NCBI GenBank assembly: GCA_009869945.1
Contig: WIXG01000001.1
Span: 868,001-932,000, forward strand
Direction: 5' to 3'
Origin: Mesaphorura yosii
Taxonomy: Eukaryota > Arthropoda > Collembola > Poduromorpha > Tullbergiidae
DNA length: 64,000 nucleotides
This document shows positions 31,273 to 48,020 of the stretch, piece after piece. Under the pieces are notes generated by a model. That model had not been told where the DNA came from and searched no databases. It worked only from the letters and a program-made list of their open reading frames with translations. Position 1 is the first letter of the stretch; every line of letters starts with the position of its first letter. Made by a program: the position numbers and the translations under genes.

Positions 31273-32784
31273 ATGTCGTTACATTGGCTTTTGATTGTTG
31301 CAATATCGGGCACCCTTCTGAGTACTCATGGGTAAATATTTGGCATCGTGCTCATTCACTTGGGGGTTTTGATTTTGATTGTCACTGCTTTCAGGCATGC
31401 ACTGCAAACACGATTCCTCACCGCGACACTAAATACTACCTCCCTAAGTGCCCTGAATGGTCGCCATCTCATCGCGGCAGTTTCGGAGCACCCTCCGCAT
31501 ATTTACTCTGAGCACTACGAAGATCATAGTGTAAAACGTCGAGGTGGGAGTCACATCAAAGCACTGGAGGCAGCATCACAGGCCTTTAACTTCACGTTCA
31601 CCACCGTGGACACCGGATTCAACGACTGGAATTATGGGACGTACTTCGCTGAGAATGGCACATGGACGGGGATGGTGGGGAAAATTCTTGGTCCAAATCC
31701 AGAAGCCCATTTCATGCTTCATTGTCCATACGATCTTCAGTTTAGCTTCTTGCCTAAAGCATGGCCAATGAGCACGTCGGATCTGATTTTCTTCACGAGG
31801 CCGGGGATGCAGTTCTTGAACTGGTACTCAATCTTTCGTACGTTCGACGCGATGGTATGGAGTCTCTTTTTCCTACAGATGTTGGTGATTGGGTTAATGC
31901 AGGCTCTCCTTGGCCGTGTTTATTCCGAGGACGGGCGAAGACCAGAAATATTTAACGACGCAATATTTCGACCTCTCAGTTTGGCTTTGGAACAACAGGA
32001 TCCAAATCCGAGCAAGCGGCACAGTCGACGGATGGCGTCCCTTCTCATTGTGTACGGGAGCCTGATAATGGGGGCTGCGTACAGGGGCGATTTGCGTCAG
32101 AAACTGCTGTTTCCGACAACGGAACCACGGCCACAGACATTTGAGCAGCTCGTCGATCATATGCCCGATTTTACCATCAAACTCACAATCATGGGCGGTA
32201 TTGAGAAACGTCTTTTTGAAAACCCTCAAAGCAAACTTCTTAGTAAATTAAAATCGAGGCTCATCTACGACGCAAATTTTTTCCCATGCTTCGCCGATGC
32301 TTTCGGATCCGAGAAGACTGTTTGCATTGTCTGGAGTGCTATTGTTGAAGAAGGATCCTGGGCTACGGACCAGTCCAGGGAACTGCTCGACCCCTTCTAC
32401 CAATCAAAGAACGCAGTTTACAGCGTCTACAATTCGTGGGCTTTTCCACCGGGCTCTGAGCTAGTTGAGCCGTTCAAGTGGGTCACCAGCGCGCTGTACG
32501 AGGCCGGATTCTTCTCGCGATGGGACCGAGAAGTTGAGCTCATCTACAAGCAAAAGCAGCGAGACTTGTTCCAGATGATTGACCCGGACATGTACAGCAA
32601 GCTGGAGACAAATCTCGTGCAGCCAGTGGCCCTGAACAAACAACTGAAATTCGAGAATGTGTGGATCATGTTTTTGATGACGGGCGTCTTTCTTGGGACT
32701 GCAAGCCTCGTTTTTTGCATTGAAATAATATTGCATCAATTTGCAAAGAAAAACGAAGCTCGGGTTTTAAAGTTTACGTCTTAA
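31273..32784 (+). CDS. Divergent ionotropic receptor (IR)
   Basis: Two exons: 31273-31331 and 31395-32784 (482 aa). A signal peptide (MSLHWLLIVAISGTLLS) is split by the only intron, and the protein begins almost directly with the ligand-binding lobe, with no amino-terminal domain. Membrane segments: M1 about residues 170-194 (FDAMVWSLFFLQMLVIGLM), M2 about 233-255 (MASLLIVYGSLIMGAAY after a pore region with little conservation) and M3 about 442-468 (VWIMFLMTGVFLGTASLVF). This topology is that of iGluR-derived chemosensory receptors. I do not see the Arg, Thr and Asp/Glu signature for glutamate binding, as in divergent IRs. It is probably a chemosensory neuron subunit that needs a co-receptor; the ligand is unknown. 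Confidence 0.82.
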
Positions 32785-41677: not shown

Positions 41678-43799
41678 TTAGAAAGTGAAGTCATCCACCA
41701 TTTTTGCTAACGCCTCCGCCTTCTTGGTTGATTTTTTCTTAGACTTCCGGATCTTTTTGTTGAATTGCTTCTTTGTAGCGACAACGCCAACTGTGCTGGG
41801 TTTCTTTACCAAATGAGGATGCGTATCATTAAATTCTTGCTTCAGCTTCTTCCTTTCCTTGGCATCAAGAACTTCGGTATTCACAGCAAAAGACACCTTC
41901 TTCTTTGCGGTTTTGCTGCGAGAGCCACGCTGTGTGCTCGCTTCATCGTCATCCGATTCCATAACTTCATCATGGTCGGAATCTGACTCGGCGTCATCTT
42001 CCATTTCGATATCTTGACCGGACGTAAAATTGTCAAGTGAAAATTCTTTCGATAAAGACGTAAGAATGGCAGAATCCTGCACTGGATCAGGCACGTAGTT
42101 GAATTCAGGAGTTTCGGTGAAAAACCTTATCGTGCCACTGAAAACAACGAAGTTTATTAATTAATTGTTGTTTCGTCAATAGTATCAAATAATGGGGAAC
42201 AGAAGGACTTACATATGCCAGTCGTGGATGATTTTCTGCTCGGCTGCCGCCACATTTGGCAGCCCACCCTTTTTTATCTGACCGAACTTGGAAGCGACCT
42301 GTGACAAAAATTCGTCAACATTTTGGAATTCCGGTATCCCATACTGGAGCATCAGAGTCGTTCTTGGAACTCGGGCAACAATAGTTTCTATTGATATTCC
42401 ATCTTTTCCTTTGTCTTTGTCAAAGCACACGCCGGGTGAATCGATAAGCCGTAGCTTCGAATCCAAATGAACAACTTGGCAAGCCCTGCAGCAAAAATCA
42501 ATTGAACGTTTTTCTTTTTCCTTCTAAACCTTGCAACTTGTAATACTTGCCTTGTAACTCCTGGTTTGGCACCTACATTACAAGCCTTGGATCTTTTTAA
42601 TGAATTTATCAGTGAACTTTTCCCAACGTTGGGCGTGCCGATTACCCCAACAGTGAGACCGCCAGCAGAATCCCTCGCCCATGCGCCAAGCAACCCCATC
42701 AAATCAGAGACGCCGACACTCTTCTTGGTTTCCATTGCATCTTGATTTGTGACGGTTGCGATCGAACCAAATCTGTCCTTTTGTTTCTGTGTATTTGATT
42801 TGAACGGAAGAACACTGCAACCGACCCTGGAAGATATAAATACAATTGGCTTTCGTGGGTCGCAATCTCGCAAAATTGGGGAATATTTCGATAAGTTGAG
42901 CTCGTACGTTTGTTTTAAATACGCTATCCATTTCTGAAGATTATCCAGCGGCACCAAATCACATTTGTTTAGAACAATCATTAATTTCTTGTCGGTGGAA
43001 TTGCGGACAAGTTCTTCGGCTTCATCGCTACGAGTGCCCAAGGGGTCACGAGAGTCTAGTACTTGTATAATTACATCGGACTCGGCGATAACCTGTTAAA
43101 AACCCAACACCGTTCTTCATTCTGAGCAAAGGTTAGGTTTGGAATTATGTTAAAAGTCAAAGCGAACCTGTTGAAATTCTCGGTAAAAGGCCTTCAGACT
43201 GGAATCACTTTGTCCATTCTTTTTCGCCTTTTGCTGCTGTTGCTCGAATTTCTCAAACTGATATCCGCGTTCTTCAGCCTTCTTCCGCAAGTCTTCAAAA
43301 CTTGTTACAGCTTTCTTCTCCTTCACATCTCCAGCATTTAGCTTAACTGCACTACTCTTTGTGAGCGCAGTTGAGTCCGCCTGAGCTCCTCCTGTAGCTG
43401 CTGCCGCCTTCTGAGCTTCCTTCTTAGCCTTGCGTATCTCACGTACCTCCTCCTTCCTTGCTTCCTTCTGAGCCTTGATTTTATCGCGTAAATCCTTCGC
43501 CTCGGTCAGAATCTGGAGCTTGAATGGACAATCACTGGGCACGGTAATTGTCTTATTCTTCCGGTGCTTGGCTTTTAGTTTAGTCTTTTCAATCTTCTTC
43601 AACTTCTTATTGTGCTCGCGTATTTTCTTTTCAATCTTGTACCGCCTTGCGGCTGGAACCCGCTTCGATTTGCTTTCTGAAAACAGCAACGATAATAATA
43701 TTAATCTGATCAACCACCAGGTGTCCACGAATCCCTTCAAACCACACGGCACACGGGCCATGTAATATGCTCTGACTTACTCAAGAATTTCTTCACCAT
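41678..43799 (-). CDS. GNL3: Nucleostemin / GNL3-type nucleolar GTPase
   Basis: Five exons read leftward: 43781-43799 (19 nt), 43168-43676, 42551-43092, 42213-42485, 41678-42137 (600 aa). A Lys-rich basic N-terminus (KSKSKRVPAARRYKIEKKI) serves nucleolar targeting. It is followed by a circularly permuted G domain: NKCD at about residues 218-221 (G4), GTPNVGKSS near 328 (G1), PGVTR (G2) and DSPGV (G3). This G4-G1-G2-G3 order is the YlqF/YawG family hallmark. The C-terminus is acidic then basic. Family knowledge: GNL3/GNL3L and NS1 act in 60S ribosome assembly and cell proliferation. Whether this is GNL3 or GNL3L in the vertebrate sense cannot be decided here. The intron 42486-42550 has a GC donor. 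Confidence 0.9.
42486..42550 (-). other. GC-AG intron in GNL3
   Basis: On the minus strand the exon ends ACAAG and the intron begins GCAAGTATT and ends TTTGCTGCAG. This junction alone gives the conserved GVTR-ACQVVHLDSKL sequence across the switch region. Confidence 0.75.
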
Positions 43800-44371: not shown

Positions 44372-46002
44372 CTATTCCACCCCTTGAAATCTTGGTCTCT
44401 CTACGCTTGGAGTAAAGTTTGAAGTATTCGCAACCATTATAGCCTGTTCGGGATCACAAACATTAATTAAATCAATAATGATTATCAAGCAATTAGCAAT
44501 GCACTTGCACTAAGTAACAAATACCTTGATGATCCACTCGAAATTGGCAATTGCAGTCCACACGAGAGATTGCTTCGAATGAATTAGCTCAGGTGCAATT
44601 TTTGTTGGACTCTTGTACACATCGTGATGAAATAACGTCCAGTCCAAATCGGCTTCTTTCACGTCCTGTTATTCATATTGGAGATTTTTATTAATTTACA
44701 GTCAGCCGAGAACAACGTGATTCGTGAACGACTGTAAAAAGGTCATTCACTCAGCCGACTCAGCTGATTACCTTCACAGTAAGATAAACTTCAGATAAAT
44801 TGTGAAAACACGTCGAAATCGTGTTTGACCGAAAAATTGCATCTGCCATGTTATCACACTGATGAAATTCAGTATTGTACTCTCTGGCGAGCTTCAAGCC
44901 ATTCTCCAGAGTCAATTCAGGCAATTTCTGCACAAAATACGCAAATTCTCATTACGAATAATATCGCAACATATGACTCAATTGCCACTCACTCCATCAC
45001 AAACATATCGAAAGTGAATGCCTAACTTCGGAAGTAGAGTTGCGTACGTATTGAGCAAGGGATTGTTATCTGAAACAAAAAGGGACACGTATAAGCTTTC
45101 GTTATTACATTCCGCAAGCCAGAAGGACGAACCTGGTCCGATGTAAGAGAAAGTTAGCCTTCGAAGAAAACCGTAGTACTCTTGCAGAGAAAGACACTCA
45201 GCCAGGGCTACGCCCAGCGCCGTTTCGTTCGACCGCAGGTTCACAACAGGCACCGTGCTCCCACGAGCAATCTTCTCATAGTCTTCTTGTGTCCACCTTG
45301 GCGCCTCAATGAAAATTATGTCTGCCGCTGCGGAAAGAGATCTGGAATTTCCAAATGTAACGATTGAGTTAATGATCAATCAGAGTTCTCAGATTTCATG
45401 TCAGCGTCTCACCTTCCGAAAAACTCCAAATCTAACAACGGATTAATATCACTGTCATGCAGGCATGTGGCGACAGCACCAACTCTTCGAGTCGCATTGA
45501 GGATCGACAGTTTTGTGATTGGATCTTCGAAGATACAAAAGGCACTTTTCCCCTCACAGATCTGACTCACGCCTTTCTGCATTTAGAAAGGAATTTTAAG
45601 TGTGTAATGCCCTGCAAGGGTGGTACCTGGTAAGCTACTGATTTTGGGGTACTTTTGTCGCTTTCAAGTCCAAGGCCGTCCAGAGCAGAGTCAAGATGTC
45701 ATTTGTGGAGTAAGTGTCGAAACCAAGCAAGTCCCTCCCTTTCAACTCACTGAGAAAGTTTCCAAATTAACTTTCAAACTTCTTTCATTCGCAGTTAATG
45801 TCTTGTTGAAGTACCTGGGAAGTTGGGGCGTCATTGCCGCCGTCAGTTGAGCACTTGCATAGCGAATAGAGGAGGTGCATGAGCAAATTCCACTACGAGC
45901 CCTGAGCCGGGAGTTTTCTCTTAGCGTGTGATGTGCACACATAGCGTTGAACGCTGTGGCAGAATTTATCTTTGTCATCTTCCTCAAATTTTGGAGCATC
46001 AT
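44372..46002 (-). CDS. Ornithine carbamoyltransferase-like protein lacking catalytic residues
   Basis: Eight exons read leftward: 45815-46002, 45653-45749, 45413-45576, 45133-45341, 44993-45069, 44772-44927, 44525-44665, 44372-44443 (367 aa). The first 60 residues are basic, a probable mitochondrial presequence. Homology to animal OTC is clear from end to end: LKGRDLL, ILTLLWTALDLK, GKSAFCIFE, LSLQEYYGFLRRLTFSYIG, DWTLFH and a C-terminal AIMVANTSNFTPSVERP. Yet the carbamoyl-phosphate motif STRTR reads ITKLS (115-119), HPIQ reads ALGV (191-194), the ornithine loop DxxxSMG is missing with about 14 residues deleted, and HCLP reads HHDV (310-313). All eight exons are open and well spliced, so it looks like an expressed pseudoenzyme with unknown binding role. 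An ordinary pseudogene is unlikely. The start at 46002 is chosen because translation from there gives the presequence. Confidence 0.78.
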
Positions 46003-46483
46003 CTTCCCTCCTGAGAAGTATGAATAAAAATCGGCATTAGGAAATATCAGGCATTCATGTGATTTTTGATGACAGGAACAGGTCAACCAGTAAAATGCGC
46101 ATCGCGTGGGTTCTCCTTGTGCCCAATTTCCAGTTAAATCGTTAATTGGATTGCTCAAGGCTGGGTATTCCATTTTCAGTTTGCTACTGTCAAGTGGCCA
46201 ACAACCGAGTGATAAAGTAATTGGTGTTTTCCCATCAAGTAATCAAAATTTAAATACTCAAGTGCTCTTGTACTAGATATTAAAGGCCGAACCAGAGGAC
46301 AACGGGCACTCAATGAAGTACATGATTCGAGTAATTACAGAGGAACAAAGGGTCGAGTGGGTTGTGGCGTGGTACGGTGCCTTCGCATTAAAACACCCTC
46401 GCCACCGAGTCGTAGACCTTCAGTAGTGAATGCTCAGTCACTTGTCACTTCAATACAGTGAGTTGTCAATCAGGAAATTACAA
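46003..46483. promoter_or_regulatory. Divergent promoter region, OTC-like gene / G12 gene
   Basis: 481 bp between outward-facing start codons. Toward the G12 side: a TGATAA GATA-type site (46210-46215), a TATA-like ATTAAAA (46387-46393) and a TTCAGT initiator (46419-46424), about 60 bp before the G12 start. Confidence 0.45.
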
Positions 46484-48020
46484 ATGAAGCTGGCGGTGGG
46501 GCTCCTTTTTGTCACCCTCGTCTCATTGGGAGCCGCTTTACCGCCACATTTCTCTCGCACACGCCCTAAAGCGAGTCTGCGAAATCAACACTCGGCAGCC
46601 TGCTCGTACGTTGCCGAAGATGGAACTCAACCCGCAGCCGTCAATTTGAAACCTCTTCTGGACAAGTACTATGCACTCCTCGATTTTGATGACATGGAAG
46701 ATTTCATCCGAGAAAAATTGGAGTCAGATGACCCGGACAGCCGAAAACTGTTGGAATACTTTTTTAGCGATGGAGCGAAGAGAATTGTCGACTATCTTTG
46801 GGAGGATCCAGAGTTTCCTGCCGTAAGATAACAAATGAAACACACTCTGCATGAAAATTCTGACGAGCTAAAACGAAATTCTGTTATCTGTAGTTAATTA
46901 AATGGGGCTACGATAATGGACTGACAAACATCTACAACGAACTGAAAAAACTGCACGAGATATTTGGCTGGAGACAAATCGGTCTGCAGAATGAGATCCA
47001 GATTCAACATGTTGAGAAAGAAACACACAAAAGACGCCCGCGCTCAATCGGAGACCTCGTCGATGAGTTTGGAGAGTTAATTCCAATGGACCAGATGATC
47101 AATCTAACCCTGGAGCTGCTCGCAATGGGGGACGAGACACTAATTGCGCTGATCACAAGATTGAGTTGCACAGAATTGGGATCGCTGTGGTTCCGCGTGA
47201 AAGAGTTGCATGAAGTGCAAGACTATTTCAGCTTATTACGGGAGGAAGGAGTTTCCATCGATCACTTCATCACTTTCTTAGAATCTATATTTGGATGGAG
47301 AGAATTTCCTCAATATCCCAAAACTCACGTCAAACACGACGCCGCGTACAATCTGGCTGCAGCATGGGAGAGAATTCTTGCAGTGGTTGACGTCGCAGGA
47401 CTGAAGGAATACTGGAGGGAATTCCAGACCTTACATTGCGGACAGAATGCGCTGGACTACGTGCGAGGTCAGGACTTTGGTCAACTGATAACAGATTTCT
47501 ACAAGGAGAAACATTTCATAAATGTACGCAAGAAACGCATTTGAACTGCTGATACTGACCAAAATGCATATGCATTCAACGCGATTCTTACTTGCAATTG
47601 CAGATTATGGACTGGACACAATCGCACGGCCTGGACCACCTTTACGAGTTTATCGCCTCGGTTCATACTGAGCTTAGTATTGCGAAACCGCCTTACCCAA
47701 GACAAGGCGAAGGTGCAGCCCAACAGTGCGCTTCAGAAGAATGGGTCAACATCAGATCCATTCTGAATACACTCATCCCGCAAGAAAAATTAAGCGATAC
47801 GATTTACGAACTGATAAAGCGAGACGAGTCGGTTCAGAAACTGCTAGAATTGCTTGCGGCCAACCAAGTAGACTCTGCCTATCACCACTTCATTAAGCAG
47901 AAACCTTATCAGATTTTTATGCAAAAGCTACGTGATGCTGGCTTCAAAATCGATGATTTCATCACCATTGTTGAAGCGCTAATGGGATGGGACAATCGAC
48001 CAAGACATAACCTTTTATAA
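46484..48020 (+). CDS. Secreted insect-allergen-repeat (G12/nitrile-specifier-like) protein
   Basis: Three exons: 46484-46822, 46894-47523, 47604-48020 (461 aa). A signal peptide (KLAVGLLFVTLVSLGAAL) precedes four all-helical units of roughly 100 residues. Units 2 and 4 end alike (VSIDHFITFLESIFGW and FKIDDFITIVEALMGW), and units 1 and 3 each carry a phase-0 intron at the corresponding place (before LIKW and IMDW). This is the Ins_allergen_rp family (PF06757), which includes cockroach Bla g 1, mosquito G12 and Pieris nitrile-specifier proteins. These are secreted into the midgut, bind lipids and appear after feeding. A gut role is inferred from the family. A dibasic-rich linker (KRRPRS) between units 1 and 2 may be cut. 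Confidence 0.85.

Follow-up and report, generated by a model that had tools for sequence, protein, structure and literature searches.

The closest described relatives of the gene reported here are the homologues of ornithine carbamoyltransferase (OTC) found in arthropods. According to the sections of a 2025 account in Insect Mol Biol that bear on this point (PMC12419136), OTC homologues, members of KEGG K00611, occur in 40 arthropod species, namely 25 Lepidoptera, 6 Coleoptera, 3 Hemiptera, 2 Thysanoptera and one each of Phthiraptera, Odonata, Collembola and Thecostraca. D263 and C303 are absent from all 40 in that account, and R141, H168, Q171, L304, R330 and substrate-binding residues are described as absent as well. 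An AlphaFold2 model of the Helicoverpa homologue is presented there as suggestive of an ancestry in common with OTC, and the same sections call for further studies on a possible other role of the arthropod homologues. A retained OTC pseudoenzyme is well supported here but already known from arthropods through the sections of PMC12419136 cited, and the gene described below fits that description. No literature on a function for arthropod OTC pseudoenzymes was found, and PMC12419136, as far as its cited sections go, is the only direct prior art that was found.

Other reports touch on the subject, each in the excerpts used here. A silkworm gene named “ornithine carbamoyltransferase-like” is listed in a table of expression and methylation (PMC7013401) and is known to us by name, not by sequence. 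The monarch butterfly was still counted in 2019 as having a complete arginine pathway (PMC6444547), which is disputed in the cited sections of PMC12419136. Transcripts of OTC, argininosuccinate synthase (ASS) and argininosuccinate lyase (ASL), of either host or symbiont origin, appear in a whitefly study (PMC4441466). Compared by description, the protein analysed here lacks the same seven residues as the homologues in the cited sections of PMC12419136 and shares the OTC fold by prediction. Conversely, it differs from that account by adding intron homology to vertebrate OTC and a genome in which ASS and ASL were not detected.

The OTC-like gene occupies positions 46002–44372 on the minus strand of the window, i.e. 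the whole 64,000-nucleotide stretch of DNA that was analysed. Eight exons join into 1104 nt encoding 367 amino acids; all seven introns are of the GT...AG type and there are no internal stops, in full agreement with the original prediction of an eight-exon, phase-consistent open reading at 44372–46002. The chance of a stop-free run of 367 codons at the given base composition is approximately 8e-10. Codon usage favors the assigned frame as a whole (+0.091 log units per codon, as compared to −0.322 and −0.233 for the other two frames), and 12 other open reading frames of the window, on which the codon table was itself trained, score between +0.069 and +0.253, thus bracketing the OTC-like gene. 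The signal is uneven along the gene, being close to zero in exons 1 and 8 and slightly negative in exon 5; in exon 1 another frame even scores slightly above the coding frame (+0.031 versus +0.012). A search of the genome with the protein itself (E up to 1) gave eight matches, all of them its own exons, which identifies the gene as single copy.

Homology to OTC extends over the full length of the mature region. The top match of the 367-residue protein among PDB chains in phmmer is human OTC (E 3.6e-26, residues 64–363), followed by sheep OTC (E 2.6e-24), while the best prokaryote chain, from Pyrococcus, reached E 2.3e-10. Alignment to human OTC (1oth, 1c9y) is collinear, with 90 of 293 aligned residues identical. 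The N-terminal Pfam domain PF02729 scored 40.6 bits, above its cut-off of 29.9. The C-terminal domain PF00185, located where expected and following the N-terminal one, remained below cut-off (19.3 bits against 29.4, E 0.0012); as the phmmer match to human OTC is full-length, it spans this region too. The score for the NCBIfam OTC equivalog TIGR00658 was 59 bits, far below the cut-off of 280.85. An AlphaFold2 model, computed with 29 of the 73 extracted prokaryote (bacterial and archaeal) OTCs as input rows, showed a pLDDT of 84.2 and a pTM of 0.81, with high values across most of residues 61–350. Its top Foldseek match was again human OTC (1oth, E 7.5e-27, TM 0.87 by target length). As a single-sequence control gave no usable model (pLDDT 31.9), the evidence for the fold leans on homology and the prokaryote rows. 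The postulated collinearity with animal OTC is confirmed by the alignment.

Ahead of the OTC-like domain, exon 1 (45815–46002, minus strand) encodes a presequence. The first 62 residues contain six R, two K, one E and no D, consistent with the basic presequence that had been predicted. In a scan for amphipathicity no strong stretch stood out, and one segment of 14 residues reached the threshold. An IRY/AS stretch in exon 1 resembles a mitochondrial presequence cleavage site. Judged by composition, the presequence would direct import of the OTC-like protein into mitochondria. The OTC-like domain begins in exon 2 (45653–45749, minus strand) with the motif ELKGRDLL, which aligns to human OTC.

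Intron positions provide evidence of descent. The first of the seven introns sits in the presequence, which cannot be aligned, and was excluded from the comparison with human OTC. Two of the human sites used, c.216 and c.1005, are presumed positions. Further human splice sites were taken from excerpts of published reports, comprising c.77/78, 298, 540, 664, 718 and 868 (PMC7712605), c.663 and c.867 (PMC12351844) and c.386, the boundary used for the comparison of exon 3 (PMC8670272). The excerpt of PMC12351844 also prints “Intron 5 c.514-35”, at odds with c.540, and the window gene has no intron at the site matching c.514-35. Three of the six remaining introns share codon and phase with human OTC (human codons 129, 289 and 335). 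Like human exon 4, exon 3 ends in phase 2 within the codon matching human R129; exon 6 ends exactly at human intron 8, and exon 7 exactly at what we take to be the position of human intron 9. A fourth intron, at the end of exon 5, is offset by one codon from human intron 6 (codon 221) in identical phase, and a fifth lies four codons from human codon 72, also in the same phase. No human intron matches the one at human codon 196, and the window gene in turn lacks introns where human OTC has them at codons 100, 180 and 239. In simulations with fixed phases and random codons, the chance of three exact matches in six was 2e-5, and that of four within one codon 5e-5. Without the two presumed human sites, two exact matches (P 1.1e-3) and three within one codon (P 2.1e-4) were left. 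The introns in common thus point to an animal OTC gene as the ancestor of the window gene. This links the gene to animal OTC through inheritance, whereas the cited sections of PMC12419136 propose a possible common ancestry from a predicted fold.

The state of the active site was examined at 21 positions picked as known active-site residues, in part from published lists. The reference set consisted of human OTC and 72 prokaryote OTCs; the best 80 of the matches listed had yielded 73 reading frames (seven gave none, and some starts are uncertain), one of which was dropped as over-long. As the prokaryote sequences were retrieved with a pattern of STRTR type and then selected for RTR and HxLP motifs, conservation at those motifs is partly by construction; the conservation of R141, HPxQ, D263, SMG and R330 is free of that selection. 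Only T93, N198 and H302 are kept in the OTC-like protein (3 of 21), T93 by one gap placement only, whereas 18 positions differ from human OTC. Among the carbamoyl-phosphate residues S90, T91, R92, T93, R94, R141, H168, P169 and Q171, T93 is the single survivor, as is H302 among the ornithine and catalytic residues D263, SMG, HCLP and R330. All seven of D263, C303, R141, H168, Q171, L304 and R330 are changed or missing.

The losses are distributed over several exons, all on the minus strand. The carbamoyl-phosphate loop region falls into exon 3 (45413–45576), in which STRTR is lost. The letters opposite this motif vary with gap placement (ITKLS if ungapped), whereas the predicted loss holds regardless. 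Near the H117 loop, the window protein differs from human OTC by a five-residue gap followed by a three-residue insertion. In exon 4 (45133–45341), R141 is replaced by E162 and HPIQ by ALGV. Exon 5 (44993–45069) begins the ornithine-binding domain, which continues in exon 6 (44772–44927). Here, D263 and the SMG loop are lost, the loop region being 13 residues shorter than in human OTC, in accordance with the shortened and lost SMG loop described previously. Exon 7 (44525–44665) carries HHDV at the position of HCLP and F339 at that of R330, and exon 8 (44372–44443) encodes the end of the C-terminal helix and a SNFTPSVERPRF tail, collinear with the human C-terminus. Both anticipated replacements, HPIQ by ALGV and HCLP by HHDV, are thus borne out by the alignment. 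The statement that every catalytic motif has been replaced holds at the level of motifs, but not for single residues, given the survival of T93, N198 and H302.

Beyond the active site, the protein keeps 31 of the 97 columns that are at least 90% conserved in the OTC set. Retention amounts to 3 of 21 at the active site and 28 of 76 at the other conserved columns (two-sided P 0.065); hence the protein is broadly diverged, and it is not certain that the active site has been hit harder than the rest. The reverse pattern would be expected of an enzyme under ordinary constraint. The net charge over the 21 pocket positions is −2, as compared to +4 in human OTC, so that, judging from the residues, carbamoyl phosphate and other anions should no longer be bound.

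The genomic context was investigated by domain searches of the 93-Mb genome, read exon by exon. The check for a separate active OTC, raised together with the original prediction, was run and none was detected: two OTC/ATC Pfam models matched only the aspartate carbamoyltransferase (ATCase) domain of CAD on contig C19. Both models were also silent at the window gene and would miss an equally diverged copy, but not an ordinary OTC. The CAD domain belongs to the same superfamily and genome as the window gene and served as a control; it keeps STRT, HPTQ and HPLPR, in contrast to the window gene. ASS gave no match in the genome with two domain models that succeeded in 14 of 14 control genomes, and ASL gave none with ASL_C2 (13 of 14 controls, above cut-off in 11), although these controls, being intronless prokaryotes, are no proof that the models detect genes interrupted by introns. 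Exons of CAD and of the arginase family were detected in the same genome by the same exon-by-exon approach. The arginase-family pieces present include one on contig C179, a second (C948:330-671) that is a possible duplicate or haplotype copy of the former, and a third, weaker piece on C206.

The ATP-binding domain of carbamoyl-phosphate synthase (CPSase_L_D2) was found at no fewer than five loci, a lower bound given that ten candidates were scored. Four of these have acetyl-CoA carboxylase (C184), methylcrotonyl-CoA carboxylase (C335), pyruvate carboxylase (C51) and propionyl-CoA carboxylase (C63) as their best PDB match. The fifth is a carbamoyl-phosphate synthase (CPS), the sole CPS among the matches listed, located on the same strand as the ATCase at a distance of 11 kb. 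Among PDB chains it matches human CPS1 best, a result that leaves both CPS1 and CAD open; from its place beside the ATCase, the locus is most likely CAD. With the only CPS found likely to be CAD, and with ASS and ASL undetected, an active OTC would have neither a known dedicated substrate supply nor an outlet in this organism.

We therefore favor, with a probability of roughly three in four, the assignment of the window gene as a vertically inherited animal OTC gene that lost catalysis, turned into a probably mitochondrial pseudoenzyme and was kept after loss of the urea cycle, as reported for other arthropods. Four alternatives were weighed against it. A corrected gene model could in principle restore the missing motifs, but the motif sites are flanked, within their exons, by sequence alignable to human OTC, and four of the six mature-region introns fall within one codon of human introns. 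Mis-splicing is rejected on these grounds as extremely improbable. Bacterial origin by horizontal transfer with later inactivation would suit an enzyme common in bacteria and archaea. It is hardly credible in view of the introns in common with human OTC and the ranking of PDB matches (3.6e-26 for human OTC versus 2.3e-10 for Pyrococcus), and it is rejected on that ranking and those introns.

More attention is due to the two readings that accept the gene and its ancestry. Decay in a frame that happens to be unbroken would account for the weak coding signal in exons 1, 5 and 8 and for an active-site loss not significantly above that of other conserved columns (P 0.065). However, identity to human OTC at 90 of 293 positions, the absence of stops and frameshifts and seven intact introns are hard to reconcile with a lack of constraint. 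The loss is, moreover, common to homologues in several arthropod orders in the cited sections of PMC12419136 and hence probably old, and the silkworm gene listed by name in the excerpt of PMC7013401 also speaks against decay, which is considered very unlikely. Alternatively, the protein may have been neofunctionalised as an enzyme or binding protein whose old pocket binds another ligand and possibly catalyses another reaction. The reversal of pocket charge from +4 to −2, the new HHD run at HCLP, the glutamate at R141 and the predicted retention of the OTC fold are in line with this proposal. Against it, the alignment from which the pocket charges derive is gapped in the loops. We regard neofunctionalisation as unlikely, if worth consideration. 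In a specific version, somewhat more doubtful still, the anion pocket has been rebuilt as acidic and histidine-rich (E162 at R141, D113 at K88, HHD at HCLP) and binds, probably within mitochondria, a cation, metal or amine. If true, arthropods would have a ligand-binding protein of OTC fold with new chemistry; a cationic ligand or metal as the replacement ligand is speculation.

Returning to the retained pseudoenzyme, both substrate sites, for carbamoyl phosphate and for ornithine, have lost their ligand residues while the frame is intact, and we infer retention by selection. The OTC-like domain probably still assembles into the trimer typical of OTC, and its role would rely on ligand binding or structure rather than on carbamoyl transfer; our preferred guess is that the protein serves in mitochondria, either structurally or by binding a ligand. 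Partnering in heteromers with active OTC appears unlikely because no active OTC was detected in the genome. The proposal of a pseudoenzyme kept after the loss of catalysis is thus supported in part, by an intact single-copy gene, by OTC ancestry and predicted fold, by the lack of matches to another OTC, ASS or ASL in the genome and by a sole listed CPS beside the CAD ATCase. The gene adds another case in which an OTC homologue has kept an intact frame but not the enzyme's chemistry, and the genome that carries it is one in which other steps of the cycle went undetected. If such retention is general, arthropods possess an unrecognised, probably mitochondrial protein.

Further observations concern the genome and the neighborhood of the gene. 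A COX1 search of the genome gave no match, and neither did an insect odorant receptor model, the latter run without a positive control. Within the window, a long receptor-like open reading frame at 31336–32784 (plus strand) showed a weak match to a glutamate-receptor ligand-binding domain (E 5.1e-5, below the Pfam cut-off) and is possibly an ionotropic receptor. At 42388–43776 (minus strand), a GTPase open reading frame (Pfam MMR_HSR1), which presumably resembles nucleostemin/GNL3, is preceded by a basic, lysine-rich one. Adjoining the OTC-like gene in divergent orientation, a gene at 46430–48020 (plus strand) contains insect-allergen related repeats (PF06757) above the Pfam cut-off in two open reading frames, which fits a host that is probably an arthropod.
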